Source: Natranaeroarchaeum aerophilus (GTDB lineage Archaea; Halobacteriota; Halobacteria; Halobacteriales; Natronoarchaeaceae). Taken from it: a DNA stretch of 64,000 nucleotides. Position numbers and translations under genes: made by a program. The notes under the pieces were generated by a model, which saw nothing but the letters and a program-made list of their open reading frames with translations, was not told the DNA's origin and did not search any database. Location: the NCBI RefSeq assembly GCF_023638055.1, contig NZ_JAKRVY010000001.1:441815-505814 (forward strand). Direction: 5' to 3'. Below, piece by piece: positions 37,458 through 54,640 of this stretch (position 1 is the first letter of the stretch; each line of letters begins with the position of its first letter).

Positions 37458-37518
37458 GTTGCACTTTCGAAGGGCGTTCCGGGAGTCGTGGGAAGTCGCT
37501 TCCGTGGTGTGATTTCGG

Positions 37519-38547: not shown

Positions 38548-39330
38548 CTACTCCGCAGCACCCCGTTCCGGTTTGATGGTTACCCGTCGCGCGAGATAGT
38601 CGACGGTGATCTGCACGTACTCGCGCTCGACGGTGAACTCGGGGAACGAGTTCGGATCAGGCCCGAGTCCGGCATTCAGTGCGACGGAGTAACGCCCGTC
38701 TTCGAGTAGGCGTACGTCGATCGCGTCGAACGTGTCGGAGTTCGTGATCAGGTCGACCGCGCCGTGCAGGTCGCAGTCGGGGTTCTTGTGCCAGCCTTTG
38801 GGCGGCTCGACGAATCGATCAGGCTGGTCGTCCGACTCCGATGCAGTGGGAGAGTCGGCCTGCTGGTCGCGCCGTCGAAGACACGTCTTGCATGGCGAAC
38901 GCCCGCGAGTTCCAGCAGGCGACTCGACGTATTCGGGTGCGCGGAGAACTGTCGAGTCGGGGTCGGCGTCGTCGAGATGCTGGCAGTTCTGGAAGAAGTG
39001 GAACGAGCTACCGGAGTCAGTGTACCACGCTCGTTCTACCTCGGTAGTGGACGGGCCGCCGTCAGTCTCGACGGGCAGCTCGGAGACGGGAGTGACGCCG
39101 GTCGGCGCACAGTTGAGTCCGTGGCTATTGGCCTTCCGGTGTGCCCGAGCACGGGAGTTGTGAGTATCAAGATAGCCACAGTCGGTACACCGGAGGATGA
39201 ACTCCTCGGGTGCGTGGTGATCCGGCTCGTAGCCGTCAGGTATCGCCTGCGCGTACACGTCGCCGGGCTTTTGAGCGTGTGATGCGTCCAGATCGTTGTG
39301 GGGCTTACCCCCCACGGTGGTTTCGCTCAT
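38548..39330 (-). CDS. Zinc-finger-like protein upstream of the integrase
   Basis: A 260-residue protein from MSETTVG. GGAG seven bases before this ATG supports the start; an ATG at 39384 is alternative. Cys/His motifs: CTDCGYLDTHNSRARAH (C2H2-like), CQHLDD and CKTCLRRRD, and a beta-rich C-terminal end. The stop directly abuts the integrase ATG, so the two are cotranscribed. In SNJ2, accessory genes next to the integrase assist integration; this could be such a helper, by position only. Confidence 0.72.
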   Translation of the reverse strand: MSETTVGGKPHNDLDASHAQKPGDVYAQAIPDGYEPDHHAPEEFILRCTDCGYLDTHNSRARAHRKANSHGLNCAPTGVTPVSELPVETDGGPSTTEVERAWYTDSGSSFHFFQNCQHLDDADPDSTVLRAPEYVESPAGTRGRSPCKTCLRRRDQQADSPTASESDDQPDRFVEPPKGWHKNPDCDLHGAVDLITNSDTFDAIDVRLLEDGRYSVALNAGLGPDPNSFPEFTVEREYVQITVDYLARRVTIKPERGAAE

Positions 39331-39540
39331 GGATTCTCCTGCGGAGCCACCTTGGGCCGGTGTGCCAGCACCGGCCTGCTTCATTTGCCGACTAGTTTCG
39401 TCTACATCCAGCTTGGTTGCCCCGCATACAGGTAGTTGAATTCTCTATGCATAAATGTATCGCAGATAGTTTCTAACATCATAGATAGGTAGTAGCATCT
39501 TCCATGAGTATTAGATGCCTGCATCACGAAACGAATAGCA

Positions 39541-39852
39541 ATGAGACAGTCGGGCACTTGGATGACCATCTGGGACGACCGAATCTTAGAGGTCGTTCGA
39601 GACGAGGGTGCAACCCCCGTAGGAAAGATAACCGAGAACGATGGGATCAGAATTTCCCAGCCGTCAGTTTCGCGCCGATGCCAGAAACTGGCGGACAATG
39701 GACTGTTACGCCCGATTGGAAACGGTGTCTATGCGATCACAGATGAAGGTGAAGCCTATCTAAAAGGAGAGTACGATGCCGAAAATGGTGCGTTCATGAA
39801 CGGTGGTGAAGTAAACAACGGCCCCGCTGCTGGAGAACCCTCTGATATATGA
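39541..39852 (+). CDS. PhiH1 repressor-like winged-helix protein
   Basis: A 103-residue winged helix: WDDRILEVVRDEGATPVGKI, then a recognition helix with ISQPSVSRRCQKLADNGLL and the wing IGNGVYAITDEGEAYLKGE. This matches the phiH1 repressor-like family that controls lysogeny in haloviruses. It is divergent from the integrase operon with a 210-base intergenic region, where a switch between integration and virion genes could sit. Overlaps the next, similar gene by four bases. Confidence 0.87.
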   Translation: MRQSGTWMTIWDDRILEVVRDEGATPVGKITENDGIRISQPSVSRRCQKLADNGLLRPIGNGVYAITDEGEAYLKGEYDAENGAFMNGGEVNNGPAAGEPSDI

Positions 39853-40142
39853 CTGACCGCAAAGCCGCCCGTTGGATGTGTACACTCGATGAGCGAATCC
39901 TTGAGCACTTACAGAGGAGATCGTGGGAGACTCCCAGAACGATCTCTTCAGTAATGCGATTCAATGCGAGTGAGGATCGGATACGAGAGCGTTGTCAAGC
40001 ACTTGCTCAAGCCGGATTGATCGGACCTCTTCACGAGGATTCAGATATGTATTCAATTACAACTGAAGGGGAGCTGTATCTGTCTGGTGATCTCGATGCA
40101 AATAGTGTTTCACGTCCCTCTATTGAAAGATTGAGGGGGTAA
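39849..40142 (+). CDS. Second PhiH1 repressor-like winged-helix protein
   Basis: A 97-residue paralogue-like protein with LDERILEHLQRRSWETPRTISSVM, a recognition helix with SEDRIRERCQALAQAGLI and wing MYSITTEGELYLSGDL. Translation is coupled to the first repressor. Two adjacent winged-helix proteins may bind as a heterodimer or set opposite states. Convergent with the AT-rich cassette; 30 bases separate the stops. Confidence 0.83.
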   Translation: MTDRKAARWMCTLDERILEHLQRRSWETPRTISSVMRFNASEDRIRERCQALAQAGLIGPLHEDSDMYSITTEGELYLSGDLDANSVSRPSIERLRG

Positions 40143-40172
40143 GTGAAGGAATAAAACAAATACCATCCAAAG

Positions 40173-40592
40173 CTAAAACTCACGGCTATAATTATCAGCA
40201 AATTTATCTATAAATATGTGTGTTGATAATATGAATATAAAAGACAAAGATGCAAACAACAAAATTACAGAAATCATCTCTTCTACTGTTGCAATGATTG
40301 ATAACTCAACTGACGTATGGGCATACGATACAACAATTGAAACTAAGGAAATCAAATAAACCCATTCTAAAGGTTTTGGTGATTCATCTGGGTGTCCTAT
40401 TGTATAATTATACATATACGCACCCATCAATAATGTAATTGCCCCGAATAATAAAAACACACCATTGTGTTTTATATTTGGCAAACTTGGTTCGACACCC
40501 ATAGAATAAAGTACTATATAATTCAATGCCGGTAAGAATACGAACAACCCCGACTTCTCATCAAGCAACGCGTCTACGTCTTGAACAGACAT
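40173..40592 (-). CDS. Four-helix membrane protein, third gene of the AT-rich cassette
   Basis: A 139-residue integral membrane protein with about four helices (residues about 15-35, 43-60, 75-93 and 100-128), short loops and the tail IDKFADNYSREF. AT-rich codon use unlike virion genes. It is last in the three-gene unit, two bases after the preceding stop. Small multi-helix proteins in this position are often the membrane-damaging effector of abortive-infection units; that is inference only. Confidence 0.75.
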   Translation of the reverse strand: MSVQDVDALLDEKSGLFVFLPALNYIVLYSMGVEPSLPNIKHNGVFLLFGAITLLMGAYMYNYTIGHPDESPKPLEWVYLISLVSIVVSYAHTSVELSIIATVEEMISVILLFASLSFIFILSTHIFIDKFADNYSREF

Positions 40593-40594
40593 TA

Positions 40595-41467
40595 TTAATC
40601 AGATTCAGCATTGTCAGCTTCCTGAAACTCATCACAGTCAATTCTGTAGACCGTTTCTCGGCTATCTAACATCATAGTATATTTTAGATTTTCCGAAGAA
40701 GTATGCAAAGTATCTATACTTTTTCTGAGCTTCAACCGGTTTTCCCAACCTTGAGCTCGTGCATCAACATATTCAATTTTTATCGGATGACTATCGTAGT
40801 CATTAAGCTTATTTATTATTCTTTTAGTTATCATGTACTGTTTGGTATGTTTTGATACATAGACAGTAAAAGGCTCATTAGAAAGAATATAGTTATGAGC
40901 ATGTTGACGAGAGTTCGTGGGATAATTAGTGTATTCATTGGGACTATCGAATATTTTTCTAATATATCCGCCTTCGTCGTAGTACCCGGAACTTATTAAG
41001 TTAGCAACAAGCCTTATTTCGTCATCCTGAAACCGATTAGATAATTCGGACAGACGCTCTGCCATTTTTTTCTTCGGTGTATAGTGTGACTTCTTTTCCC
41101 AATCCTGACGGAGATACAGTGCATTCCGGATCATTGCAACATCATTCTTCGTCAGGTAATCTCTATAATAATCTACAATATCTGTCAGACGATCTTCAGT
41201 TAATGCTTTCTGAACTAATAGAATATCCTCTTGAATTTCAGGATCAAAGAATCCACCCTGCATCCATGCACCGCTGTATACTTTTTCAAAATCATCGTCA
41301 GAGAGTGCATCTATATTTATAACAACAATTTCCTCACCTTCCTTCTGTTCAATACGAGCTTGAGGAACATCAGAACCGAGAGCGTCAACTTCAATTTCGA
41401 TATTTTCTAGGTTTCTATCAGAAGGTACAATATCAGAAGTGATTTCTCTAACGGTGTCCCACATCAC
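40595..41467 (-). CDS. Unknown 290-residue protein of the AT-rich cassette
   Basis: A soluble mixed-fold protein; family not recognised. Residues 1-60 look like a beta-rich start (IEIEVDALGSDVPQARIEQK, EEIVVINIDAL), the middle is helical (DILLVQKALTEDRLTDIVDYYRDYL with KKKMAERLSELSNRFQDDEIR), and the C-terminal part has strands (FTVYVSKHTKQYMITKRIIN). It overlaps the upstream gene by four bases. Markedly AT-rich codons suggest recent transfer. Position suggests a sensor or regulator for the membrane protein behind it. Confidence 0.75.
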   Translation of the reverse strand: MMWDTVREITSDIVPSDRNLENIEIEVDALGSDVPQARIEQKEGEEIVVINIDALSDDDFEKVYSGAWMQGGFFDPEIQEDILLVQKALTEDRLTDIVDYYRDYLTKNDVAMIRNALYLRQDWEKKSHYTPKKKMAERLSELSNRFQDDEIRLVANLISSGYYDEGGYIRKIFDSPNEYTNYPTNSRQHAHNYILSNEPFTVYVSKHTKQYMITKRIINKLNDYDSHPIKIEYVDARAQGWENRLKLRKSIDTLHTSSENLKYTMMLDSRETVYRIDCDEFQEADNAESD

Positions 41468-41721
41468 TCGTCTATTCCATGTTTATGTTCAGCAAACTTG
41501 GCTGCAGAAGCAAAATTATCTTCAATAAAAACCTCGGAGGCATTTCCAACTCCACCTAGGTCTTCAATCTTTATTTCATTTCCAAGGTTGGACTCAACTC
41601 TATCACCGTCCTCGTCTAAAATATATCCTTCATCATCAGTAGATTTACCAGACCTTTCAAGCATCTTCTCCAGCGCGGCGGGCCTGAATGTGATGTTTGA
41701 TTCCATGATTGAACAGTTCAC
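41464..41721 (-). CDS. Small acidic protein, first gene of the AT-rich cassette
   Basis: An 85-residue protein; an ATG at 41706 (MESNITFRP) is another possible start. Features: RPAALEKMLERSGKST, an acidic stretch with DEDGDRVESNLGNEIKIEDLG, and FASAAKFAEHKHGIDE. It could be an antitoxin-like or immunity partner by size and position. Its stop overlaps the next start by four bases (ATGA). No family recognised. Confidence 0.7.
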   Translation of the reverse strand: MNCSIMESNITFRPAALEKMLERSGKSTDDEGYILDEDGDRVESNLGNEIKIEDLGGVGNASEVFIEDNFASAAKFAEHKHGIDE

Positions 41722-41857
41722 AGGCCTAGGGCCAGTGTCTATGTCGTATTACGAGAAGCTATGATCATATATTTTGTGACTCAACGCTCGCTAACTCGTA
41801 ACCGCATTCCCGTGGCCCCCTGCGCTCCGCTTGGGGGCGTGCGGTCGATCTTCCGTG

Positions 41858-41883
41858 TTTACCCCCCATGGGAGGGGGGTAAA
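41858..41883. repeat. Ten-base perfect hairpin TTTACCCCCC / GGGGGGTAAA
   Basis: Arms 41858-41867 and 41874-41883 with loop ATGGGA. Another stem, GCCCCC/GGGGGC (41815-41838), lies just before it. Both sit between the AT-rich cassette's start (41721) and the end of the virion operon, exactly at the composition change. May insulate the two units or mark a cassette boundary. Confidence 0.6.
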
Positions 41884-41938
41884 GACGGCTATCTCCCTTG
41901 TGGTGTTTGGTGAGCTGGGAGAAACAGGATGGCTGAAA

Positions 41939-41969
41939 GACCGCCCGACCCGTTGAGGGACGGGCGGTC
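41939..41969 (-). terminator. Hairpin terminator of the virion operon
   Basis: GACCGCCCG (41939-41947) and CGGGCGGTC (41961-41969) are perfect nine-base arms with a 13-base loop, starting 16 bases after the NTPase stop in the direction of transcription. No long T tract follows on the minus strand, so folding rather than a classical intrinsic signal may act. Confidence 0.55.
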
Positions 41970-41985
41970 GGACCGTCAGAAGATG

Positions 41986-42918
41986 TTAGTCGGTGATCTC
42001 GAAGGTAGCGGTCTCGTCAGGATCGTAGTCAGCATCGGACTCAATCGAGGGAACCGGATCGATCGTGAACTGCTCCCCGACAAAATTGCCGTCGTCGATC
42101 GCGTCGTAGAACTCCGCGTGGTACTCGTCGGCTTCGAGATCGTGCTCTTCCCGAACCTGCTTGACGAAGTACGTCGAGTGTTCGCGCAGTGCTGGCGCGA
42201 TATCGTACCCATCCTCACGGTGACCGATGACGATCATCCGAAGCCCGAGTTTGCTCTTGAACGTGACCAGTTCGTAGAAGTGTTCGTTCACGTCGTAGTT
42301 GCTGGTCTGGGCGTTCGCTTCGGTCGAGAACTCGTCGAGGACGGCGAAGATATCGTCGTACTCGTCGCAGAGATCCCGGAGTTCGGACTTTGATTCGACG
42401 TAGTGAACGCGCTCGTCGAGCGCGTCGTCGTGGAACTCCAGCGTGGTGACGTTCGTAGCGAGCACCATGTCGGGATCGTCCAGGAGCGCGAGGAACGCGA
42501 GCCACAGCGCGGTGTTCGTTTTCCCGCCGTCAGTGTGACCGACGAAGACGGGCATCCAGCCGGGCCGTCGCATCTCGTCGACGATCTTCATCAGGGTGCG
42601 CGCTTCGGAGAGGTCGACCTCTCGATGCGTTAGGCCGGTGAGGTAGGAGAGCAACGAGACGTTTCCTTCACGGACTGCGCGAGCTGCTGCTTCGCCAGCG
42701 TGTTTCATCAGCATTCGCTCGCAGAGGTCGGTCTGCTCGAATGTCGCCGGGAGATCGGGATGGTGAGAGGAGTCGTAGACGTGAGAGAGGTACTGATATC
42801 GTTCGAGTGCAGCACCCTCGAAGTACGCGCTCAGTGGATAGGCGGCTCGGTTGTCGGTGAGCCGACCGTCCTGTACTTCGCGGTACTCCGCAGCAGGGAG
42901 TGATGGGTCGCCGGACAT
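41986..42918 (-). CDS. Virion-block NTPase (pleolipovirus VP8/packaging ATPase-like)
   Basis: A 310-residue P-loop ATPase. Walker A VGHTDGGKTNT lies at about residues 126-136 and Walker B FAVLDEF at about 191-197, followed by a helical C-terminus and an acidic tail. The spacing resembles the small FtsK/HerA-type ATPases of archaeal viruses. It is the last gene of the virion operon, as VP8 is in pleolipoviruses, where it is a putative NTPase. Shares one base with the preceding gene. Ends before the 41939 hairpin. Confidence 0.85.
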   Translation of the reverse strand: MSGDPSLPAAEYREVQDGRLTDNRAAYPLSAYFEGAALERYQYLSHVYDSSHHPDLPATFEQTDLCERMLMKHAGEAAARAVREGNVSLLSYLTGLTHREVDLSEARTLMKIVDEMRRPGWMPVFVGHTDGGKTNTALWLAFLALLDDPDMVLATNVTTLEFHDDALDERVHYVESKSELRDLCDEYDDIFAVLDEFSTEANAQTSNYDVNEHFYELVTFKSKLGLRMIVIGHREDGYDIAPALREHSTYFVKQVREEHDLEADEYHAEFYDAIDDGNFVGEQFTIDPVPSIESDADYDPDETATFEITD

Positions 42919-43757
42919 CAGTCATCGGCCCCCGCTCGATCGGGCTGGTCGGAGAAGAGACCGGCACTGTCGGCGTTGGGATCGAGGCGATCAGGGCCAG
43001 CCGGTTGGTAGTCGTCCGGTGTTTCGGTCCACGGTGCGGGATCGTCGAGTTCGTCGATATCGGAGAGTTCGACATCACTCTGTACTCCGGCGATCAGACG
43101 GTTTGCCTGGTCGCGGAGTCCCTGCACGCGCTTCTGGAACATCTCCTGTTTCTGCTGGACGGACTCCTGCACGATATCAGTGAGATCGACGCGGACCTTC
43201 CGCCATTCCTGATATCGGTCGGTTTCAGCGAGTTCCAGCCACGAGGGTTGTGATTCGGTGATTGGCGTATCGAAGACCGCTCGAACGTCGTCGTCGAGGT
43301 CGTCCTGGTCGTCGTCAGTCTGAAGGACGACATAGCCGGCTCCGTTATCGGTCTCGCGCTGGCGCGGGAGTCCCTGAGTGAAGGCGAATTCGTTCAGGGA
43401 GTTCCCGGTAGCGAGGACGCAGTGAACCTCTTTGTGATCAGGATCTCCGATCACCAGAGGCGTAGCGTTCTGCAGAGTGATGTAGAGGTTGGCACTGAAC
43501 ACCATGGGACCGACGATCAGGAGGAAGAGAAACGCGGTGAGGAACGATAGGGAGAGCCATCGGAGTGTTCTCGACGGAATACCCGAAAGCTCGATGAACG
43601 AGAGGGAGAGACCAGCGACCAGTAGCAGGATACAGAGGGTGATCGGCCACTTGAACGCGATCAGGAGATCGGCGAGATGGCCGCCGGTTCCCTTGGCTTC
43701 CGTGTTGACGTTCATTGTCTGCGGGAGGTTCTTCGGGTTCCGGTCGTCAGAAGACAC
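42918..43757 (-). CDS. Virion-block membrane protein (pleolipovirus ORF7-like position)
   Basis: A 279-residue protein starting at GTG 43757, chosen because GGGGGTG, close to the haloarchaeal ribosome binding site, ends five bases before it; a GTG at 43796 gives 13 more residues but overlaps the previous gene by 50 bases. Two helices at about residues 33-52 and 67-90 are followed by a large soluble domain with VQKRVQGLRDQANRLIAGV, a likely coiled coil. It corresponds by order to ORF7 of pleolipoviruses. Confidence 0.75.
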   Translation of the reverse strand: MSSDDRNPKNLPQTMNVNTEAKGTGGHLADLLIAFKWPITLCILLLVAGLSLSFIELSGIPSRTLRWLSLSFLTAFLFLLIVGPMVFSANLYITLQNATPLVIGDPDHKEVHCVLATGNSLNEFAFTQGLPRQRETDNGAGYVVLQTDDDQDDLDDDVRAVFDTPITESQPSWLELAETDRYQEWRKVRVDLTDIVQESVQQKQEMFQKRVQGLRDQANRLIAGVQSDVELSDIDELDDPAPWTETPDDYQPAGPDRLDPNADSAGLFSDQPDRAGADD

Positions 43758-44304
43758 GGTAGACACCCCCGTTGCTGTTGCGGAACCAGTAGGCACAGGT
43801 CACGACGACTGTGGTAACGATGAACAGCGCGGTGCTACCGACGACCAGCGGATCGTAGCTGTTCGGCTGGCCGGGGAGTCCTGGTGCGCTGATCGCTTCG
43901 CGTTCCCCGAGTGGGATGCGAACTGTTTGCCCGTACTCGGAGGAGACAGTGACCATCGCCTCACCGTGATAGGTAGTCGCCGGGATCGTGATCACCGTCT
44001 CGCCGCGATCGACCTCGACGCTCGACGAGTCGACGCGGGACGGACCAGCATCGGGTTCTTCACCACCGCCGTAGAGGTCGCTGTATGCGATCGTTTGCGG
44101 TCGGTCGCTTTCGATCGTGACCTCGACTTGGTCGTTCTCTGGCTGATGGTTCACGTCGGTCACACAGGTGATATCGTTGAGACAGATCACCCGCTCATCG
44201 GGTTCCGGTTCGGTACTGTTCTCGGCTTCCTGCGCAGCGACGGAGCCGGTCAGCAGCGCGAGCAATGCAACTACGCACACGAGCGTTCTGAAAAATCGGA
44301 TCAT
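43747..44304 (-). CDS. Secreted membrane-anchored virion-block protein (ORF6-like position)
   Basis: A 185-residue protein from MIRFFRTLVC. It has a Sec-type signal peptide (about residues 1-24, cut near SVAAQ), a beta-rich exterior domain with a Cys pair (VICLNDITCVTD), and a C-terminal helix (about 155-178) with a short basic end (WFRNSNGGVYRVF). In pleolipovirus gene order the gene after the spike has this design and is thought to aid envelope or spike function. Eight bases separate it from the spike gene. Confidence 0.8.
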   Translation of the reverse strand: MIRFFRTLVCVVALLALLTGSVAAQEAENSTEPEPDERVICLNDITCVTDVNHQPENDQVEVTIESDRPQTIAYSDLYGGGEEPDAGPSRVDSSSVEVDRGETVITIPATTYHGEAMVTVSSEYGQTVRIPLGEREAISAPGLPGQPNSYDPLVVGSTALFIVTTVVVTCAYWFRNSNGGVYRVF

Positions 44305-44312
44305 GGGTGTTG

Positions 44313-46073
44313 TTACGGAGTGATCAGTCGGATGTACGCCGAGGCAAGTGCCGTGAGGAAGAGAACGACTGCGACGATGCCAGCGGCGGCAGAGCCGACG
44401 AGCCCAGGTGCCTCGAACCCGCTGACATTGAGATCGGGCCAGATGCCAGCAGCTTGGTTCTGCTGGGATTCTTTGTACTTCTCGATGAGTTCGTCGTTGC
44501 GCTGTTTCATCTCTTCCCACTCCTCTTGCTCAATATAGTTGCTGTCGTCGTGGGCTTCCGAACTCTCGAACTGTGCACTGTCGTGTTCGTTTCCGTCGCT
44601 GTCGACGAAGGTCACCACATCGAAGGTCTGTTCGAGACGGATTGTCTCGTACTGTGTTTCGTCGAGATTCGACCGATACTCGATCTGGTCGACCTCGGTA
44701 ATCGAGTCATCGAGCTGGGGAGAGAGGTCGATCGTCCACTCCCCGTTCTCCTCGTCGTGTGCGAGCTCGGAGTGATCGAATTCAGCGGTCTCCCCCGCGA
44801 CAGTATGGACCGTGAATTGAACGTCCTCGAACGGTTCCTGAGTGATGGTCAGGACCCCGCCATCAAGGCCGTCCTGATAGCCGGTCCACTCTCCACGACC
44901 CTGCGAAATGTCGTAGTTGATATAATAGGTGTGATCAGTGGCCGTTGGGTCGATCGTATCGCCAGCGGAGACAGATGTGTTTCCGGTCACACCGAGCGAC
45001 CCGTAGATCGTCGCGTCAGCTTCATGCAGATAGAGTTCTGCCTCTCGATCGAGATCGACGGCGACGTTCAGTGCCATCAGGTCGGCGATCGCCTGATCAA
45101 CCTCTTCGTCACTGATTTCCGCCCACTCTCTGGGAGTGAGCAGTTCCTCAGTATCGAGGTCTCCGCTCTGTACGTCGTCGTAGACACCGCTGACCCAGTT
45201 ATTGAGTCCAGCTCGAACACCTGCGAACTCGTCATGGATCAGGTCGCGGATCTCTTCCCAGTCGTCGATGTCCAGAATGTCAAATTCTTCGCTGTCTTCG
45301 TATGAGATCGTGAGGGGAGGTTCGTTACCCGATCCCCATCCATCGGTTGTGTGATGATCAAAACCGAACTCAAATTCACCATATGACATATCGCCGCTTT
45401 GAGACTGGTACTCGACCCACAACCGATCTACTTCCATTTCGCTCCCGTCTGGAAGCTCAATGAGTTCAGGTTCAACTTTTTCGATCTGCTGAACCTCGCC
45501 CGAAGTACCACCGATCACCTCGTGGATACCGGCGTCCGGATGATCACTGTACCTCTGGCTGATTGTCTCCAGTTCATCACAGGTCTCGTTCCACGACTTG
45601 TAGAAGTTCGAGAGAACCGTGGTCTCGTAGTCGTCGACGGGAGGGAGTGACGCGTCATAAACATCGTTCTGTGACTCTTGATCGTTCAGTGCCTCGATCG
45701 CCGCGACCTTCCCCTCGGCATAGGCGGGATGGCTGATCCCTTCGAGGATGTTTTTGTTGTCGATGAAATCACTCTGGTTGTTGCTATGACGCTTCCGGAG
45801 GGTTTCATACGAATTATTGTTCAAAACTTCGGGAGTCAGCCCTTCGGGTGGTGGATTTGATCCCACTACCTCGTTATCGCGGAGGTAGACGCCAGCACCG
45901 ACGCCGACCTTTCCGGCAGAGTAGACACCGACAGCAGCAACAGCTGGAGGGATCGCTTTAGCTTCCTGTGTCGGGCCGTGCTGCGAACCTACGCCTACAA
46001 CTGTCGCAGCTCCGGCGGCGGTCCCCTGGAGAACTCGTCTACGAGTGAGGCAGGGACCACTCTCGTCGGTCAC
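44313..46073 (-). CDS. Envelope spike protein (pleolipovirus VP4-like)
   Basis: A 586-residue protein with a twin-arginine signal (LTRRRVLQGTA), a large extracellular region (about 40-510), a predicted coiled coil (EQEEWEEMKQRNDELIEKYKE, about 515-540) and one C-terminal membrane helix (about 560-582). That is the design of pleolipovirus spikes: Tat export, coiled coil, tail anchor, exposed N-terminal domain. It uses a GTG start overlapping the small gene before it by four bases. Spike N-domains vary greatly between viruses, so lack of obvious motifs is expected. Confidence 0.87.
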   Translation of the reverse strand: MTDESGPCLTRRRVLQGTAAGAATVVGVGSQHGPTQEAKAIPPAVAAVGVYSAGKVGVGAGVYLRDNEVVGSNPPPEGLTPEVLNNNSYETLRKRHSNNQSDFIDNKNILEGISHPAYAEGKVAAIEALNDQESQNDVYDASLPPVDDYETTVLSNFYKSWNETCDELETISQRYSDHPDAGIHEVIGGTSGEVQQIEKVEPELIELPDGSEMEVDRLWVEYQSQSGDMSYGEFEFGFDHHTTDGWGSGNEPPLTISYEDSEEFDILDIDDWEEIRDLIHDEFAGVRAGLNNWVSGVYDDVQSGDLDTEELLTPREWAEISDEEVDQAIADLMALNVAVDLDREAELYLHEADATIYGSLGVTGNTSVSAGDTIDPTATDHTYYINYDISQGRGEWTGYQDGLDGGVLTITQEPFEDVQFTVHTVAGETAEFDHSELAHDEENGEWTIDLSPQLDDSITEVDQIEYRSNLDETQYETIRLEQTFDVVTFVDSDGNEHDSAQFESSEAHDDSNYIEQEEWEEMKQRNDELIEKYKESQQNQAAGIWPDLNVSGFEAPGLVGSAAAGIVAVVLFLTALASAYIRLITP

Positions 46074-46222
46074 AGTAGACCACCGGCTGCGAGAGCCGTC
46101 CCGGTGAGCGCGCTGAGCGCACCCACCGAGATCCAGATAGAGCGATCAGCGAACGATCCGGGTTCGATCTCCCCGACGATCGAGGTCGAGCCGAGCAGGA
46201 GTGTGTTGTCTGTTTCAGTCAT
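46070..46222 (-). CDS. Tiny single-helix protein between VP3-like and spike genes
   Basis: A 50-residue frame MTETDNTLLL... with one C-terminal hydrophobic helix (about 29-50, IWISVGALSALTGTALAAGGLL). The start lies one base after the VP3-like stop, and its stop overlaps the spike GTG by four bases, so it fills the gap exactly and must be coupled. Possibly an envelope component or spike-assembly factor; too short for similarity judgement. Confidence 0.7.
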   Translation of the reverse strand: MTETDNTLLLGSTSIVGEIEPGSFADRSIWISVGALSALTGTALAAGGLL

Positions 46223-46223
46223 G

Positions 46224-46625
46224 TTACTTGCTCACGATGAAGCCAGCTCCGAGCATCACGAGCAGCAGGACGAATCCAACGATGGGAACGCCGTGCGGCT
46301 GCAATGCCGGATCGGTTACGAAGTCACGAAACGGTGCGACGAAGCCGTGTGCGAGACAGAGTAGTATCGCCAGGAGGACGACACCGACCTCTGAGGGATG
46401 GAAGTCGCTGGGATCGCGCGTGTTCGAGGACATGAACACCACGATCAGCGCGAGCAGCGAGAGCGTGACCGGGATCAGCGGGTTGTGATACATCAGGTCG
46501 ATCAGCCAGCCAGCGACTCCGGTCTGTACCGCACTGAGGAAGGTGAACAGCGCGAGGGCGACCCCTGCCATCCAGTTCACGGAGGCGAATGCGTGCGCGG
46601 GATTCCACGAGTTGCTGTGTGCCAT
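46224..46625 (-). CDS. Four-helix integral membrane protein (pleolipovirus VP3-like)
   Basis: A 133-residue protein with four hydrophobic segments (about residues 17-40, 50-66, 79-97 and 112-131). Pleolipovirus VP3-like internal membrane proteins have this size and topology and precede the spike gene, as here. Expected to line the inner side of the virion envelope. Confidence 0.82.
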   Translation of the reverse strand: MAHSNSWNPAHAFASVNWMAGVALALFTFLSAVQTGVAGWLIDLMYHNPLIPVTLSLLALIVVFMSSNTRDPSDFHPSEVGVVLLAILLCLAHGFVAPFRDFVTDPALQPHGVPIVGFVLLLVMLGAGFIVSK

Positions 46626-46631
46626 CGTGGG

Positions 46632-46991
46632 TTACTCCAGAACTCGCACTTCCCAGTTGTCGTACTCGACTTCGTTACCGTCGTCGTCGACGAACGAGCG
46701 GGTTTCCTCAGTGTGGAGGATGCCAACGACATCGCCTTCGCCGAGTTCTTGCTCCTCGAAGACGCGATCGATCTGGCCGTTTGACCACATCGAGACCACG
46801 TCACCGAGGCCGCGGGCAAGCTCGAGGACGGTCGTGTTGTAGTCGCCGCAGTTGGGGTTCACCGAGCGAACTTCACCCACGACCTTCTCGCCGCGATCGA
46901 GTTCGATCCATTCGGTTTCGTAGTCGTCTTCGTTGCTTTCCGGTTCGACAGGTTCGAGATCTTCGAACGCTGGGGTTTCTTGAGTTGCCAT
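46632..46991 (-). CDS. Small acidic soluble protein at the head of the virion operon
   Basis: A 119-residue protein. After an acidic head, beta strands dominate (KVVGEVRSVNP, GDVVGILHTEETR, WEVRVLE), compatible with an OB-fold that might bind single-stranded DNA; residues NCGDYNTTVLELARGLGDVVS form the centre. It leads the operon, six bases before VP3-like. Function by analogy only. Confidence 0.72.
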   Translation of the reverse strand: MATQETPAFEDLEPVEPESNEDDYETEWIELDRGEKVVGEVRSVNPNCGDYNTTVLELARGLGDVVSMWSNGQIDRVFEEQELGEGDVVGILHTEETRSFVDDDGNEVEYDNWEVRVLE

Positions 46992-47202
46992 AGCTCCATT
47001 CGAATCAGATGCTAGAAATAGGGGTTAGAGTATCCCCTCGCTTGGTGAAAGTAAAAACGAAGGTATTGGAGTTTAGTAGCGAGAGATCTGACGGGAAAGT
47101 GCGAGCTACGACTTTGTTGAAGGCTCCAACGGTTAGACTGATCGTATGTTTATAGATTCACAAAACGAGCGTGAAACTGAGAAGAGAGTAGCACGACAGA
47201 AA

Positions 47203-48498
47203 TTATTGATTTTGCTCCAGACCAGTATACGACTCAGTTTCCCAATCAATATCTGGGTCTGATTGCATATCTGGGTCTCCTTTTGTCAAAATCAAACATC
47301 GATCAATAGCATCTTTTTCTTTTCGGTCCTCTTCATGATCGTATTTTAACCGATTGAAAACTACATACGCTCGGCTATCTAGATCATAAGCATCGCTAAT
47401 GATGCCATGAACATCGAAATCTGTTCTATTACGGGCCTCTTCTGCAATAATCGCGGCAGTATTGAGTGTCCGCTTGCCGGAAGCCAGGTTCTTTTGAACG
47501 TCACCAACAATTAGTACTGCAACGCTATCAGGTGCCAAAACGTCATACATCGAGTGCAGACACTCTCGCATAAATCTCCGGTATTTATCGGTGTCTTCGG
47601 TAATATCGAGCTTATTACGCTCTGATTTACGGTCCTCATTGAGCCACCAGAGTCGAATCCAATTATTCCAAGTGTAGTCCAGCGTCTGCATATAGGGCGG
47701 CGAAGTGACTATTAAATCAACAGATTCTTTCTCAAATGAGTTGAGAAGGTTTCTCGAATCACCACGAGTAATCTTAGTTCGCTCACCTAGTGATGCTGGT
47801 ACGGTATCTTCGTGTGCCAACTCTTGTTTTCGGAGTGCCTTTGGCCGGATATCCCGTTCGGGCCGTTGCAGATCATTCTTTTTAGCATACTTGCGTACAT
47901 AATTTGCAGTTCCGGAGTATGTATCCTTTGTCTGAAGTGATAGATACATTTTGCTGGGGCCGTGCAGAATCCCACACATAATCCCATTTAGATAGGTTGC
48001 CTTTCTGCTGTCATCCTCGTGTAGAACTTCTCGGAGACGGAGAATTTGATCTAGTGTATGATCCGAATAAAACACTTTCAAGTCATCATTGTCAAGAAGT
48101 CGCATTTCCTCATTGTCCACTTTGCGGGCTTCATCCAGTTTGGTATCAAGATATGGTTCAAACTCGGACGTGCTCAAAGGATTACACTTTGCCTTTGAAA
48201 GGACATATGCGTAAGAGAAGGCATCGTTTGCGTATCCATTCCGATTTTGAAGCGCAGCTTCAAGTGGAGTGGTACCGCCACCAGAAAAGGGATCTAAAAC
48301 AGTGTCTCCACTCTTACTAAAACGTCGGATGAAATAGTGTGCAAGAGATGGGGGAAACCCTCCAATATAGGGAGCTAGCCTGTGAAGGCTGTGACCCCAA
48401 TTTCTATGTGCATCTTTCCAAGTAGATTGGAGATCTTCAGTAGTTTCTGCTACGACGTTTTCTTCGGATAACTCTTTATCTTCTGATGATTTAGACAT
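47203..48498 (-). CDS. DNA methyltransferase (N4-cytosine/N6-adenine type)
   Basis: A 431-residue SAM-dependent amino-methyltransferase. The SAM motif DPFSGGGTTPLEA is at residues 69-81 and the catalytic TSPPY at 265-269, so the order is motif I before motif IV (alpha-like), with about 180 residues between that probably include target recognition. AT-rich codon use differs from the virion genes. It is third in line with NurA and HerA on the same strand, 85 bases after the NurA stop. It likely marks virus DNA as self, or blocks host enzymes. Confidence 0.9.
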   Translation of the reverse strand: MSKSSEDKELSEENVVAETTEDLQSTWKDAHRNWGHSLHRLAPYIGGFPPSLAHYFIRRFSKSGDTVLDPFSGGGTTPLEAALQNRNGYANDAFSYAYVLSKAKCNPLSTSEFEPYLDTKLDEARKVDNEEMRLLDNDDLKVFYSDHTLDQILRLREVLHEDDSRKATYLNGIMCGILHGPSKMYLSLQTKDTYSGTANYVRKYAKKNDLQRPERDIRPKALRKQELAHEDTVPASLGERTKITRGDSRNLLNSFEKESVDLIVTSPPYMQTLDYTWNNWIRLWWLNEDRKSERNKLDITEDTDKYRRFMRECLHSMYDVLAPDSVAVLIVGDVQKNLASGKRTLNTAAIIAEEARNRTDFDVHGIISDAYDLDSRAYVVFNRLKYDHEEDRKEKDAIDRCLILTKGDPDMQSDPDIDWETESYTGLEQNQ

Positions 48499-48583
48499 GG
48501 CTTCAGACTCTCTTGTTCAACACGCTTCTCGCGATGCCCATAGTATTATTCATTCGGACCCATTTGAAATACTATTTTTATAT

Positions 48584-49948
48584 TTACGATGAATTGTCCT
48601 CAGTAAATTCCCTAGAGAACAACTCTAGAACCCGTGAGCCGGTTTTTAATGGGATAGATGCCTGCTGATGTGCCAATGTGATCGGAATAGTAGCATCATC
48701 ATAAAGGGAAGTTTCAACACGGTCTATCGCCTCAAGCGTTTTCCGCATTAAAGGATAATTGGTCGGGTCATACTTATCAGACCCGTCTGGAAGTTTTGGA
48801 AGATCAAGCACGAACATCCTTTCAGATTCTGATTTGTAGATGAATGGCCATCCATAGTGGTCTCGTGTTCCATATTCTAACCGAGTGGTCCCGGACTTAA
48901 CATACTCATAGATGTACTCGTTATCCATTCCCAATACCGACCCAGCAGGCATGTTGTCCTTGATATTCACTGCATGATCTTTGAATTGACCACTCTTTTC
49001 GATACCCACGATAATTGGCGGTGAATAACCGTTTGCACGCTGTTTATCAGTAACTCGTTTAATCGTATCAAGTACAGGTTCATGGAACCAAGCAGGTGTA
49101 TCGTAGACTGCTAATGGACCATCAATAACGAACCCGACCCGAGATAATCTGCTTGGATTACTTTCGGACAAATAACGCAGGTATGCGCAGAGTGTCAAAT
49201 GCTCAAGCACCTGCATCACCGCCGATATCGCAGCACCATTTGCCTGTGTTTCACTCACATTCTCATGCGTTCGAAGAGAATCAGTTGGGTAAACTTCAAT
49301 ACCGCATTCCTCGCAGATTCCGAAATCATAAATATCTGTGTGGATGTGCGCTTCGGCCCCTTCTGTTGGGCAGTCCGGGTTCGGGCACCGGTAAACATCT
49401 ACAGTCCTACTGTCGATATGACGTGGGTCGGACTGAATGACATCCATAAATATTTCGAGGTACGTTTTCCCCTCGATCTCACGACTCAGAAACGTATTAT
49501 AAAGGTGTTGTCGCCAACTATCCAAAGTTGTCTCAGCGTCTCCAGCTGTATAATTGCTACTTGGAAGAATGATTGGCTGGGAGACACTCTCCTCGAGGTC
49601 TTCCACTCGAGATGGATCTACAAACCGTTGTTGTTGTTGTTCTACGAGGATATCCAGTTTCGTGAGAACCGCAGCAATCTGTATAAATCCGATTCGACTA
49701 CTCGGATACTCTTCGTTAACGGGGACTTCTTGGAGCGAACCATCAATGGATAAGAGATATTCTGGTTCTTCGCCTTCGTTTGGCAAGTCTTCAACATCGA
49801 CGGAGTTCTCTTCAATTGGTGCTTCGTCCGGGTCAACTTCTTTTGTCTCGAAGTTTTCTAGTTCTTCCTGGACGAGTTCATTTTCAATGATGGGAACGTG
49901 TCCTAGACGACGAGCGGTTTCGTAGATATCTCCTCGTTTCTGTGGCAT
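48584..49948 (-). CDS. NurA-domain nuclease with internal zinc motif
   Basis: A 454-residue protein of the NurA 5'-3' nuclease type: the first catalytic Asp is in LLSIDGSLQ (about residue 69), a second Asp in FVIDGPLAVYD, and later EKSG. A zinc-finger-like insertion (CPNPDCP ... CEECG) sits between. NurA proteins work with HerA translocases in end resection; here a HerA-type gene is two bases upstream. Longer than chromosomal archaeal NurA. AT-rich codons. Confidence 0.82.
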   Translation of the reverse strand: MPQKRGDIYETARRLGHVPIIENELVQEELENFETKEVDPDEAPIEENSVDVEDLPNEGEEPEYLLSIDGSLQEVPVNEEYPSSRIGFIQIAAVLTKLDILVEQQQQRFVDPSRVEDLEESVSQPIILPSSNYTAGDAETTLDSWRQHLYNTFLSREIEGKTYLEIFMDVIQSDPRHIDSRTVDVYRCPNPDCPTEGAEAHIHTDIYDFGICEECGIEVYPTDSLRTHENVSETQANGAAISAVMQVLEHLTLCAYLRYLSESNPSRLSRVGFVIDGPLAVYDTPAWFHEPVLDTIKRVTDKQRANGYSPPIIVGIEKSGQFKDHAVNIKDNMPAGSVLGMDNEYIYEYVKSGTTRLEYGTRDHYGWPFIYKSESERMFVLDLPKLPDGSDKYDPTNYPLMRKTLEAIDRVETSLYDDATIPITLAHQQASIPLKTGSRVLELFSREFTEDNSS

Positions 49949-49950
49949 TT

Positions 49951-52032
49951 TTAGAGGGTTTCTTGCCGACTGCTGTCACCGTCTCCGTAACGCTGTTCGT
50001 ACCGGTTACCGGCTCGAGTAATGAGGTCTTGATCAAATTTGTCTATTTGCGTTGGAACAATGAACTGCCCAGAGAGGGTTTTTACGCGGGCAAACCCTAC
50101 GTCCTCAGCTTCGAGAGTTAACCGCTCAAAATCCTCAAAATTGTAGTATCTAGAGAGTTCTTTGGTTTCGTTACGATTGTTGAGGTGAGTTACAATCCAG
50201 TTAGCTGTGTTCGCAAGCACACGCCCATCGACACCGCTGACTTCTTGGGTTGCATAGATCAGGCCAATATTGTACTTAGCAGCTTCTTTCGCTAGCCGGA
50301 CGTACGGGTCGGTAGCATCTGCATCGTCAAGATAGTCGCTGCCGAATAGGCGGTGTGCTTCTTCGACATAGACCTCAATATTGTGCGGTTCCTGACCGTT
50401 GGTGAACATGTCCACCTGTCGCTCTACGACTCGTTCGACGATTGTTTTGGAGATTCGCTGATTGATCTCATCTGTCCCACTGGTTAGATCAACAATCACG
50501 ATATCTCCATCAGCGAGACTGTCGTAGATGATATCCGGATAGTAGCCCTGTGTACCCGGATCGTGATATCGCCGTAGCTCTTCCAATATTTGATAACCAT
50601 TACCGGCCTCTTGGTTAAACATCGTTAACATTGCCTCAACATCGTTGGTGATCCAGTCTTCATCGGCGTTGTTGATGTCCTCGCGGTTGTTCGCGACGAT
50701 ATCCCAGAATTCCTCAAGCCGGTTCTCATCAACAAACGACCAGCCTGATGGGCCGAAGTCAGAGTTTTCGAAGTCTGGATCGTTGTCATCCAAATGCGCA
50801 TTTACCGCATTACGGACGTTGACATTCGTCGGTATCGGGGTACTGAAACCATTTGGAGTCTCGAATCCTGCTCGGATCAGACAAGCATACAGGGCAGACT
50901 GACATCTGACCGCCTCATTGACTTCTCCCCGGTTATCATCCTGTTGTTCCGGAGCAACAGGGTTAGCTGCTTTGAACGAATTAACGTAGTCTCTGTCTCG
51001 GGTGAGATGAAGTTTGATTGTTTGCCATACTTCATCGATTTGTTGATAATCGAAGAAGTCGATCTGTAGTGATTCGACATCGTCTCCTCCTCCACCCCAG
51101 CTGTAAACGGTTACAACATCATCATGAATATCTGCTAAAGCGGTTTCGTCGTCCTGAGTATTCACATTTGCATACTCCCCAGCTGGGTCGAATAGGAGCT
51201 GCCCGATCTCTTGATCGGTCTCAACAGCGTGCTCGAAAATATTTGTTGCGAGCACTTTCATCGTGTTCGACTTTCCTGTACGGGTCATCCCAAACAGGGC
51301 TGTCTTATTGCCGACAACGTCGTTGATATCAAGAGGTACGGTGGCATCATAGAGCTCCGAGTTTCGCTCAGTGGAGGTATAACGCACCCTCCCAAGCCGA
51401 ATTACGGAGTCGTCTGATTCACTCTGATCGAGTTGAATCAGTTGGAAGATTTTTGAGAGTGCTTCTGGCCTTGGTTTATATACCTTGTACCGTGCCGAAG
51501 AATAGAACGTTTCAACGTCACTGCCAAACTGGACACCGTCGTCGGTTTCATATATCGTTCCCAGTATTTTTGCGTTGATCCCGGAGAACTGGATTTCGTT
51601 CTTTGTGAGAACATCCATGATTTCCTCGCTCGAACCCGGTACATTCCTTGTGTCAACTCCCGTGTCGTTCGTTATTTTTCTGCGCATCGCCTCCTCACGA
51701 ACTTTCATAAGATCGTCCTCTGCCGGAAGTTTTTCCGGGCCTGTGGCACGAAGGAGTACAGCGTATGCGTCTTCCTCCTCGAATTCATCTGGGTTTTCCC
51801 AGTCTGTCGCCGTGGCGAGGAGGTAACAATGGCGAGGTATTCCACCAGCATCGTCTTTCCATTTGTCGTTACTGACGATGACGCCTTCGTCATAATTCAT
51901 ATAATAAATGCCGCCTACAAGGTCCGAACCTTCAATTATTGGCCGGATGGCTTGATCATCGAGGGCCATCTCGTCCATCAAATCAGGAGTCATGTCAATA
52001 CGGTATGAGGCCTTGGTAATAAACTTGGTCAC
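49951..52032 (-). CDS. HerA-like hexameric DNA translocase
   Basis: A 693-residue ATPase of the HerA/FtsK superfamily. A beta-rich HAS-barrel-like N-terminus precedes Walker A GMTRTGKSNT (about residue 247), Walker B-type IEVYVEEAHRLF (about 550) and the arginine-finger region with NRNETKELSRYY. Such proteins pump DNA to a partner nuclease. It begins the three-gene set with NurA and the methyltransferase. Chromosomal HerA of haloarchaea normally stands elsewhere, so this is an accessory copy. AT-rich upstream region 52033-52212 holds its promoter. Confidence 0.88.
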   Translation of the reverse strand: MTKFITKASYRIDMTPDLMDEMALDDQAIRPIIEGSDLVGGIYYMNYDEGVIVSNDKWKDDAGGIPRHCYLLATATDWENPDEFEEEDAYAVLLRATGPEKLPAEDDLMKVREEAMRRKITNDTGVDTRNVPGSSEEIMDVLTKNEIQFSGINAKILGTIYETDDGVQFGSDVETFYSSARYKVYKPRPEALSKIFQLIQLDQSESDDSVIRLGRVRYTSTERNSELYDATVPLDINDVVGNKTALFGMTRTGKSNTMKVLATNIFEHAVETDQEIGQLLFDPAGEYANVNTQDDETALADIHDDVVTVYSWGGGGDDVESLQIDFFDYQQIDEVWQTIKLHLTRDRDYVNSFKAANPVAPEQQDDNRGEVNEAVRCQSALYACLIRAGFETPNGFSTPIPTNVNVRNAVNAHLDDNDPDFENSDFGPSGWSFVDENRLEEFWDIVANNREDINNADEDWITNDVEAMLTMFNQEAGNGYQILEELRRYHDPGTQGYYPDIIYDSLADGDIVIVDLTSGTDEINQRISKTIVERVVERQVDMFTNGQEPHNIEVYVEEAHRLFGSDYLDDADATDPYVRLAKEAAKYNIGLIYATQEVSGVDGRVLANTANWIVTHLNNRNETKELSRYYNFEDFERLTLEAEDVGFARVKTLSGQFIVPTQIDKFDQDLITRAGNRYEQRYGDGDSSRQETL

Positions 52033-52212
52033 ACCTTAGTAAAAATAGAATACAATAACTAAAGAATATTCTCGACAAGTGAATCAGATACCCGTTGTTG
52101 GATATTTATCGATGTGAAGGTCAAAATGTCAAATTGAACTCACACCCAACTACTGTAGTACCCCAGTACTGTGGGCTGTAGATGGGACTCGATACATCAA
52201 GCTCCATGAAAC

Positions 52213-54111
52213 TCACCATACCGCTTCTACGGGTGGGGGTCGGTCACCGGTTGAACGGTACGAGATTGATGAACAATCATCATGTGCTAGCTCTTCGAGA
52301 ACCTGAATGTTCACCGTGTTATTGGGTGCGGGCATATCCCAATACGCGTAGGTTCCAAGAAACTCAACATCGACAAGCGTCCCACGAATCAGGTCATGAA
52401 GCGTTGACTGAGCCCGATTACTGTCGATATCGATCTCGGGATAGCAAGCATGAGACTCGTGAGCGAGATCAGCATGGTACAGGACTGAGCTTTTCGTAGC
52501 TTCGTGAACAGCTCGACGAACTTCGTCTGACTGCTGATCGTCGAGAGCAATGTCTTCCTCGATAGTCTTCGAGATCGACCAAAATCGCCGCTGGGTACAC
52601 CAGTACATCGCCAGCTTCCAGAACGCTGCCTTCCCGTCGTCGTCGAGTTCATGGTCGCCGTTTTCGAGTGAGTCTGTACTATCGAGCAGGGCGGCGTAGG
52701 TTTCGGAAATGTACTTGCCGATGTAGCTGCCAGCCGTTTTTTGATAGGCAACTTCGTCGGAGCCGTCCATGTTGATCAACCCGTCCTTCTTGTGCCAGCG
52801 CGCTTTGTCCTCGATCCACTCTTCGGAATGCTCGTGATCGCCGTACCTGTACCAGCTGACGAAGCCTTCGTCGGAGTTGAACTGCGCGTCGGGCAGTTCG
52901 TCGAGGTCGTCGCGGTAGGTGAGGGGATAGAGATCAACGATCTTCCCCTGGCCGTAGCGGTCCCAGTATTCGGAGAGTTCGTTCTTGTCGATCAGCCACG
53001 GCATTCCGTCGGTGTCGCGCGTCGGGACGTTGAAAAACAGGACGTGTAGGTGGGGATAGCCCGCGCTGGTGAACTCCAAGACCTTCACATATTCCAGTCG
53101 TTGCCGAGGTCGTCCCGACACGGCTCCCTCCTGACCGAAGTGGAAGTTCGAGGAGTCGAGTGCCGAGCTCCAGGAGGGCACGCCCTCGCGCCGAGTGTCT
53201 TTCACCGTCGACGGATCAGACTTGAGGAACTGCGTGAGTCTGTGGAAATTCTCGTTGATATCCTGAATCGCACTCCAGAGCGAGTCGTGCTGTTTCGGAT
53301 CGGTGGTGAGAGTACAGAAAACACCGTTGTCACCGTGTTCGTAGCCCCATTCGAGGGAGGACTGCAAGCGCGCGAAGGCTTTGTTGACGCGACCTTCGGA
53401 GGTGAATCGGGTATTGAAACGTTTCGTCATCCGGCGTTTGTCCTGGCCGGTTCGTCTTCCTGAAAAGTGAACGTCGAAGACGAGTCTGTAATCGTTAGTT
53501 CGTTGGATGTAACGACGCAAGCTGTTCGCAAAGAGTTCCTTCTGGGAGTCGGATAGCTGTTTGAGTCCCGAAGTAGTGGATTTGAGGAGGTTCTGGCAGT
53601 ATTCTCGATCGTAGACGAGTTCGTTCGATTCTGTGTCTGTTTCAGTAATGCCTTCTGAAATCAAGTCAAGTAACTCAAGTGTGGGATGCGCGACCCGTCC
53701 GGCGTTGGAGTCCTCTAAGCGGACGAGATCGTGGTCTTGAGCGAGTTCTTCGAAAAAGCGGAGGGTGAACTGGTAGTCGTCGTCGGAGCCATCGAGCGCG
53801 GTCCAGCCGCTTTCGTCGTAAATGCGATTCATCGCGGCGTCGTACCGCTGCTCGGCGGATGGGCTGAGGAACTCGGGTTCTGTGTGAGTGTTCGCTCTGT
53901 TGCCTTTCAGCACCAGATGCGTCATGCTGGTGAGCAGGTAGCCCTCTGGGTGTTGAGCGAGAAACTTGAGGAGTCGAACGCGATCGCGGTTGCGGTCAGT
54001 CAGTTCGTCGGAGTCGGAGGTCTGGCCGTAGGCTGTGAGTCCTCGATCGGACAGGTAGTCCACCAAGGTGGATGTGTTACATCTTGAGGTGTCGATCGAG
54101 GCCGTCGACAT
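52213..54111 (-). CDS. rep: HUH rolling-circle replication initiator (Rep)
   Basis: A 632-residue initiator. Motif 1 FCTLTTDP (265-272), the HUH motif GYPHLHVLFF (351-360) and the tyrosine motif GSYIGKYISE with Tyr 463 and Tyr 467 and Lys 466 are all visible. It nicks one strand at a double-strand origin. About 260 residues precede motif 1, a long helical extension. The start overlaps the zinc-protein stop by one base. It supplies replication of the excised circle. Confidence 0.9.
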   Translation of the reverse strand: MSTASIDTSRCNTSTLVDYLSDRGLTAYGQTSDSDELTDRNRDRVRLLKFLAQHPEGYLLTSMTHLVLKGNRANTHTEPEFLSPSAEQRYDAAMNRIYDESGWTALDGSDDDYQFTLRFFEELAQDHDLVRLEDSNAGRVAHPTLELLDLISEGITETDTESNELVYDREYCQNLLKSTTSGLKQLSDSQKELFANSLRRYIQRTNDYRLVFDVHFSGRRTGQDKRRMTKRFNTRFTSEGRVNKAFARLQSSLEWGYEHGDNGVFCTLTTDPKQHDSLWSAIQDINENFHRLTQFLKSDPSTVKDTRREGVPSWSSALDSSNFHFGQEGAVSGRPRQRLEYVKVLEFTSAGYPHLHVLFFNVPTRDTDGMPWLIDKNELSEYWDRYGQGKIVDLYPLTYRDDLDELPDAQFNSDEGFVSWYRYGDHEHSEEWIEDKARWHKKDGLINMDGSDEVAYQKTAGSYIGKYISETYAALLDSTDSLENGDHELDDDGKAAFWKLAMYWCTQRRFWSISKTIEEDIALDDQQSDEVRRAVHEATKSSVLYHADLAHESHACYPEIDIDSNRAQSTLHDLIRGTLVDVEFLGTYAYWDMPAPNNTVNIQVLEELAHDDCSSISYRSTGDRPPPVEAVW

Positions 54112-54452
54112 CAGCTTTCGAGGTCCTCGTAGCACCGCGAGGTTCGAGCTGTGAACTCGTCGGGATCGGTGGGTGCGCGGAGATCGATGAGCGCGGCTTG
54201 CTTGGCCGCTCGAACACAACCGGAGCAGAGATCGATCTGCTCTTCGAGCGAGCCAATGACCGCGATCTCGTATCGACGGCATCCGCACTGATACGCGCGG
54301 AGGTCATCGTACGCGATCGGTGTTGCGTCACTCTCGTCGTAGCAGGAGCGACAGAGCGCGCGCTCGCCCGCGTGAGTACGAACGAGTTCCTCGCTGTACT
54401 CTTCGCACTCCGCGCAGTAGCCGGGAACGCCGTACGTGGGCGTCCCGGTCAC
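54111..54452 (-). CDS. Small zinc-ribbon protein upstream of rep
   Basis: A 113-residue protein with Cys pairs CAECEEYSEEL, CRSCYDE, CGCRRYE and CSGCVRAA, probably two zinc sites. It is first in a two-gene operon with rep (one-base overlap), so it may regulate replication or bind the origin. Small zinc proteins next to Rep are common in haloarchaeal plasmids and viruses. Confidence 0.75.
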   Translation of the reverse strand: MTGTPTYGVPGYCAECEEYSEELVRTHAGERALCRSCYDESDATPIAYDDLRAYQCGCRRYEIAVIGSLEEQIDLCSGCVRAAKQAALIDLRAPTDPDEFTARTSRCYEDLES

Positions 54453-54528
54453 AGGACCACCTCACGAGGAAGAAGTATCGAACCACGAACAGTGACCCGT
54501 CTCTGAGGAGTTTGGAACAGCGGGAAGA

Positions 54529-54551
54529 AAAGCGGCGAAAAACGCCGCTTT
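54529..54551 (-). terminator. Intrinsic-type terminator behind tRNA-Val
   Basis: AAAGCGGCG and CGCCGCTTT (nine perfect base pairs, loop of five) followed on the minus strand by TTTTCTT. It lies 15 bases after the tRNA end, inside the provirus, and would end tRNA transcription before the zinc-protein gene promoter region. Confidence 0.6.
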
Positions 54552-54563
54552 ACTTTTATATTC

Positions 54564-54578
54564 AGTGGGTTTGGGCAG
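54564..54578 (+). repeat. attR: 15-base repeat at the 3' end of tRNA-Val
   Basis: AGTGGGTTTGGGCAG, direct copy of 37443-37457. It covers the acceptor strand and first T-stem bases of the tRNA, so integration keeps the tRNA functional. Confidence 0.85.
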
Positions 54579-54640
54579 ATTTGAACTGCCGGCCTCCTCC
54601 ATGTCAAGGAGGTGTCATAACCAGACTAGACCACAAACCC
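54566..54640 (-). tRNA. tRNA-Val (anticodon GAC)
   Basis: A full cloverleaf on the minus strand: acceptor GGGTTTG/CAAACCC, D-arm with the GG of CTGGTT, anticodon stem CCTCC/GGAGG around loop TTGACAT (anticodon GAC, decoding GUC), T-arm GGCAG-TTCAAAT-CTGCC, discriminator A. No encoded CCA and no intron. It is the insertion site of the provirus. The variable loop is short, as for Val. Confidence 0.93.

Follow-up and report, generated by a model that had tools for sequence, protein, structure and literature searches.

A HerA-NurA-methyltransferase cassette in a haloarchaeal pleolipovirus-like provirus: a candidate methylation-gated relative of the Tdp anti-phage system

The phosphorothioate-linked Tdp anti-phage system (TdpABC), known from a thermophile, couples a HerA-NurA pair, TdpAB (PDB 8wet, 8wfd), to the modification enzyme TdpC, which is PAPS-reductase-like and makes the phosphorothioate, and DNA modified in this way is spared. 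The subject of this report is a cassette in which a HerA-NurA pair is accompanied by a DNA methyltransferase (MTase), located at positions 47203-52032 of a stretch of 64,000 nucleotides from the haloarchaeon Natranaeroarchaeum aerophilus (contig NZ_JAKRVY010000001.1, positions 441,815 to 505,814; hereafter the window) and carried there by a pleolipovirus-like provirus. The nearest described arrangement is the operon of the tRNA-integrated element ICEth1 of Thermus thermophilus, which encodes a NurA-like nuclease, the HerA-like TdtA, a PF01555 methylase and Tth111II, and in which the NurA-like protein, TdtA and Tth111II are reported to be needed for DNA donation (PMC5365140). HerA rings also drive the effectors of SIR2-HerA (Nezha) and HerA-DUF4297 in anti-phage defence. 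DISARM, BREX and DndFGH are likewise modification-linked defences, but they are built on other core genes; DndH contains a HerA-like motor, and no NurA is named in the text of the Dnd paper (PMC10853773). In T. kodakarensis, the HerA-NurA complex, with HerA as its pump, digests both DNA strands starting from an end; the authors of that study doubt a role in end resection and suggest antiviral defence (PMC12977600). In the open-access literature, no description of a HerA-NurA-MTase trio as a defence system was found.

The cassette lies on the minus strand and comprises the genes for a HerA-family, TdpA-like hexameric DNA translocase ATPase (49951..52032; 693 aa, GTG start; Pfam DUF87/HerA, 2e-12), a NurA-family, TdpB-like nuclease (48584..49948; 454 aa) and a DNA amino-methyltransferase (47203..48498; 431 aa), with 2 bp separating HerA from NurA and 85 bp separating NurA from the MTase. 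In HerA, the Walker A motif GMTRTGKSN (248-256) and the EEAH motif (557-560) are intact, and their residues are invariant across 51 relatives. The best PDB match to its sequence is TdpA (8wet_A, 1.9e-16), followed by SIR2-HerA at 1e-6. The HerA model aligns with TdpA over 519-537 residues at a Z of about 30 (30.5 over 519), where TdpA ties with another HerA (Z 31.4 over 365 residues); the folds of SIR2-HerA and HerA-DUF4297 are matched at Z 23-31, and the fold is common to the conjugative pumps VirB4 and TrwB (Z 19-21). For NurA, the Pfam match is marginal (2.6e-5, just above the Pfam cut-off), and the assignment was therefore checked by structure. The AlphaFold model, built from 37 sequences and with a mean pLDDT of 87.5, matches solved NurA proteins at Z 9-21 (VIA Z) and is closest to TdpB (8wfd_G, Z 20.7), the next protein being Sulfolobus NurA (2ygk, Z 14.7); a sequence-profile search of the PDB returned no true match, even with the 37 sequences. 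The acidic residues D69, E249 and D276 are invariant in 51 relatives, and an insert carries four cysteines (C188, C193, C212 and C215). The protein would be an RNase H-like nuclease acting on ends or single-stranded DNA, and site specificity could reside in the four-cysteine insert or in HerA.

TdpA, by HerA sequence, and TdpB, by NurA fold, are the closest solved relatives of the pair, and the two systems share the combination of a HerA-like hexameric ATPase with a NurA-like nuclease. They differ in that the window NurA is longer (454 vs 358 aa) and has the four-cysteine insert, the window HerA is longer as well (693 vs 586 aa), and the locus encodes a base MTase and no sulfur-modification gene. 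With ICEth1, the gene families being compared by description, the cassette has in common HerA, NurA and a PF01555 methylase, the carrier being in both cases a mobile element integrated at a tRNA gene. The ICEth1 operon, however, runs in the order NurA-HerA-MTase, has a type IIG enzyme in front, for which there is no gene in the window cassette, encodes a NurA-like protein of 377 aa, and has been studied for DNA donation. SIR2-HerA and HerA-DUF4297 contain a SIR2 or DUF4297 effector and no modification enzyme, and their HerA sequences are less close (1e-6 and weaker); neither effector was found beside the window HerA, whose neighbour is NurA. The archaeal and Deinococcus repair pairs share the same engine, the NurA fold and its acidic active site, but their NurA proteins are structurally more distant (Z 9-15). 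Repair-type HerA-NurA is not known to be linked to an MTase, and the window pair shows no clustering with rad50/mre11, its neighbours being rep, the MTase and virion genes. A known defence system in PADLOC was rejected as the identity of the cassette, as the models that HerA and the MTase match are all generic ones (HerA, mad8, MTase_II) and no model of PADLOC-DB 2023 matches NurA.

The third gene product matches PF01555 (N6_N4_Mtase, 3.4e-20) and the PADLOC model MTase_II (PDLC03325, 1.2e-31). It has the catalytic motifs required of the MTase in a Type II-like restriction-modification set: DPFSGGGT at 69 precedes SPPY at 266, an order that is permuted with respect to the Pfam model; SPPY is common among N4-cytosine enzymes, and from its sequence the protein is predicted to be a DNA amino-methyltransferase of the N6 or N4 type. 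No PAPS-reductase (PF01507) gene is present at the window locus, the PF01507 matches of the same genome lying on another contig (C7), and none was found in 12 of the 29 genomes of cassette relatives. The partner enzyme of the pair is therefore the base MTase.

Linkage to an MTase is conserved across the family. Scans recovered adjacent HerA-NurA pairs at about 65 loci, which represent Archaea together with more than 10 bacterial phyla, as well as plasmids, prophages and viral contigs; these scans were pattern-seeded and biased to conserved members, so that all counts are lower bounds from a non-random sample. A profile scan of genome contigs gave 55 loci, and a search of 391 Halobacteria gave 7 genomes with the pair, that of the window included; the archaeal members lie on chromosomes and one plasmid (L007, L012, L074-L079). 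Among the tblastn matches to the pair were prophages of Vibrio as well as plasmids from Halorarius, cyanobacteria and Deferribacter; an MTase adjoins the pair in Halorarius, Deferribacter and Vibrio. Scans of viral contigs with NurA (A1) and with Rep as queries gave no match, and the HerA profile later gave nine in IMG/VR. NurA directly follows HerA wherever both can be read. An MTase open reading frame (ORF) is found within 400 bp of the pair in 48 of 59 evaluable loci, be it upstream, downstream, convergent or divergent, and on the viral contigs a Dam MTase lies directly upstream of HerA in seven of nine and nearby in one more (8/9 in total). The loci with no MTase within this distance are six cyanobacterial ones together with L015, L018, L022, L055 and L074, most of the latter five having an ORF with MTase motifs farther off. 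With no more than 147 PF01555 matches across 30 genomes (about 123 Mb) as background, chance proximity would be expected at roughly 1% or less per locus, far below the linkage seen, and a chance MTase neighbour was rejected. Besides HerA and NurA themselves, MTases are the only gene groups present in at least 10 loci.

These MTases form three groups that stay unjoined in an all-against-all comparison: M1 (PF01555, N6/N4), the group of the window enzyme, with 28 loci; M2 (Dam/D12, PF02086), with 13 loci, among which the L074 copy stands apart from the cassette; and M3 (PF01555, N6/N4), with 10 loci. A tree of HerA and NurA requires a minimum of 4 changes of MTase state, 'none' being counted as a state, and the Salirhabdus locus L051, which carries a Dam MTase, falls within a group of M3 loci. 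MTase groups have thus evidently been swapped among HerA-NurA pairs, as would be expected of an engine that requires self DNA to be marked in some way, by whichever enzyme.

Individual loci have additional features. The haloarchaeal chromosomal version (L074-L079) contains two extra conserved downstream genes, one encoding about 340-400 aa and the other 251-269 aa; their copies in L076 have no Pfam match, and integrases related to that of the window occur near L075 and L078. A UvrD-type helicase gene follows the cassette in L014, L015, L017 and L058, three of which have a further gene, matching PD-(D/E)XK nucleases (AddAB-like) in the L015 copy. The HerA gene of a Vibrio prophage (L006, 1309-3502) reads as a pair of overlapping ORFs, and that of Deferribacter (L009, 6132-9930) is broken by insertion of an IS200/IS605 element with TnpB.

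In the window, the cassette is horizontally acquired cargo of its carrier. A tyrosine integrase (37519..38547, minus strand; PF00589 1.2e-5 and PF02899 0.0024, below the Pfam curated cut-off) and a 15-bp att-like repeat, AGTGGGTTTGGGCAG, with its left copy at 37443..37457 and its right copy at 54564-54578, at the 3' end of the target tRNA-Val(gac) (54565..54640, minus strand; ARAGORN), identify the element as a provirus of about 17.1 kb (37443..54578). Upstream of the cassette is the gene for a rolling-circle-type Rep (52213..54288, minus strand; phrog_12863, 5e-209), which is 48% identical to ORF1 of HRPV-2 and HRPV-6. Downstream is the first gene of the virion operon (46632..46991, minus strand; 119 aa; phrog_6009, 2e-40), and further downstream genes include that for the spike protein (44313..46073, minus strand; phrog_2231, 2.6e-75) and matches to phrog_5900 and to phrog_1979 (NTPase-like). 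The distance from rep to the phrog_6009 gene is 85-95 bp in Halfgib1 (L080), L114, L115 and L125 vs 5222 bp here; because the two genes are nearly adjacent in these close relatives and 5.2 kb apart in the window, the cassette is cargo and not a replication module. Indeed, HerA and NurA are absent from the stretch searched downstream of rep in 36 other haloarchaeal rep regions, Halfgib1 and HRPV-2, and, given the empty sites and these 38 regions, a role of the cassette as a pleolipovirus replication or core module was rejected. Its GC content is 46% vs 56% for rep, 58% for the virion genes and 63% for the host. The initial annotation had described three adjacent, AT-richer genes on the same strand, inserted between rep and the virion operon, and the ORFs and their spacing, the composition, the flanking genes and the empty sites agree with it throughout. 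It had also considered that HerA and NurA might be replication genes of all pleolipoviruses, or that the MTase might be there only by chance; the 38 rep regions speak against the former and the linkage in cellular loci and viral contigs against the latter.

The provirus also contains a block of 37% GC (40173-41721) with three minus-strand ORFs (139, 290 and 85 aa) that have no clear family match and are possibly a second cargo. Among the pleolipovirus-like elements, Halfgib1 carries a cytosine methyltransferase gene (L080, 10264-11478) and L112 a weak relative of the window MTase (about 5484-6269), and methylation cargo on such elements may recur. Elsewhere in the window, a 1423-aa ORF (59293-63564), judged by eye, resembles an adenosylcobalamin-type ribonucleotide reductase with an inserted intein (CVTGETLIS... 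to ...VVHNCGEQ).

The favoured reading, at a probability of roughly 0.7, is a restriction-modification (RM)-like, methylation-gated, Tdp-like system that travels as cargo of a temperate pleolipovirus and serves it in superinfection exclusion, in self-maintenance or in both. Linkage and homology suggest that HerA and NurA form a complex with nuclease activity that is gated by methylation to the antiviral benefit of the carrier. The HerA ring would pump double-stranded DNA into a NurA dimer, which would degrade it, and the MTase would mark its recognition sites in owner DNA, both proviral and host. The methyl mark would block a step of HerA-NurA action on owner DNA, be it loading, translocation or cutting, and unmarked incoming DNA would be destroyed, in a mode like that of TdpAB with base methylation replacing phosphorothioate. 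The virus would gain superinfection exclusion and probably also maintenance by addiction, because loss of the cassette would leave the DNA progressively unprotected. An RM-like set had already been proposed in the initial annotation, and the MTase linkage, the MTase exchange and the Tdp relationship argue in its favour, as does the co-occurrence of the families on unrelated elements (chromosomes, plasmids, prophages and viral contigs). As to the novelty claimed there, the trio does appear to be undescribed as a defence system, but the TdpAB pair and the ICEth1 trio had been overlooked; the TdpAB precedent strengthens the RM-like idea and lowers its novelty.

Several points weigh against such a system. 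There is no known specificity subunit by which methylation would gate the translocase. In six cyanobacterial loci (L008, L011, L036, L039, L059 and L066), several of them on plasmids, an Xre-type helix-turn-helix gene, HerA and NurA stand with no adjacent MTase, which is then either non-obligatory or acting in trans. The surplus of defence genes in the flanks of the loci is suggestive at most: the 110 PADLOC models in 80 flanking proteins vs 19 in 80 control proteins are a crude count of families and not of proteins. Moreover, the same three families in ICEth1 are reported as DNA-donation machinery (PMC5365140). This last point is the basis of the strongest rival, in which HerA-NurA would process or export element or host DNA and the MTase would protect or label what is transferred: the ICEth1 operon adds Tth111II to these families, its mutants lose DNA donation (PMC5365140), and VirB4 and TrwB are built on the HerA fold. 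Nevertheless, transfer is an unlikely explanation here. The carrier, with virion genes of its own, already has a viral means of spread, the relatives on chromosomes, prophages and viral contigs lack a common transfer gene cluster, with only MTases recurring in at least 10 loci, and the HerA sequence is closest to TdpA and to defence HerAs. ICEth1 itself has an RM enzyme, so that its phenotype need not imply a role in transfer only.

A role in viral offence or replication is rather improbable. HerA-NurA would then resect or degrade unmethylated DNA of the host or of competitors, or process viral replication intermediates, and the MTase would shield the viral DNA, as might be expected from the other viral contigs that combine HerA-NurA with a Dam MTase and from HerA-NurA being a known archaeal end-resection pair (PMC4351679, PMC9960219). 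However, relatives with the same Rep do without the cassette, which is therefore not needed for replication, and most of the members found are on cellular contigs and plasmids and not in recognised viruses. A resident provirus that kept breaking down host DNA would kill its cell unless that DNA were methylated as well, at which point offence collapses into the RM reading. That repair genes and an orphan MTase were joined by chance hitch-hiking is strongly disfavoured and very improbable: HerA-NurA is a known repair pair and orphan MTases are common in haloarchaea, both of which count for it, but neither accounts for an MTase from one of three groups being linked to the pair in 48 of 59 loci, where roughly 1% is expected per locus.

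Beyond this locus, a broader and more tentative proposal, which falls somewhat short of even odds, is that HerA-NurA is a modular restriction engine with an interchangeable self-signal. In Tdp this signal would be phosphorothioate, and in the present family any of at least three MTase groups would supply it by amino-methylation; viruses and plasmids would have carried the engine between Archaea and Bacteria, and the pleolipovirus would use it to exclude competitors and resist loss. Current annotation would probably miss such a system, because PADLOC-DB 2023 has no matching model for the nuclease and, provisionally, the trio is undescribed as a defence. If the proposal is true, modification-linked HerA-NurA restriction would extend from phosphorothioate to a cross-domain family gated by base methylation, in which the MTases can be swapped; a pleolipovirus would carry defence cargo, and there would be reason to re-read the ICEth1 operon of Thermus.

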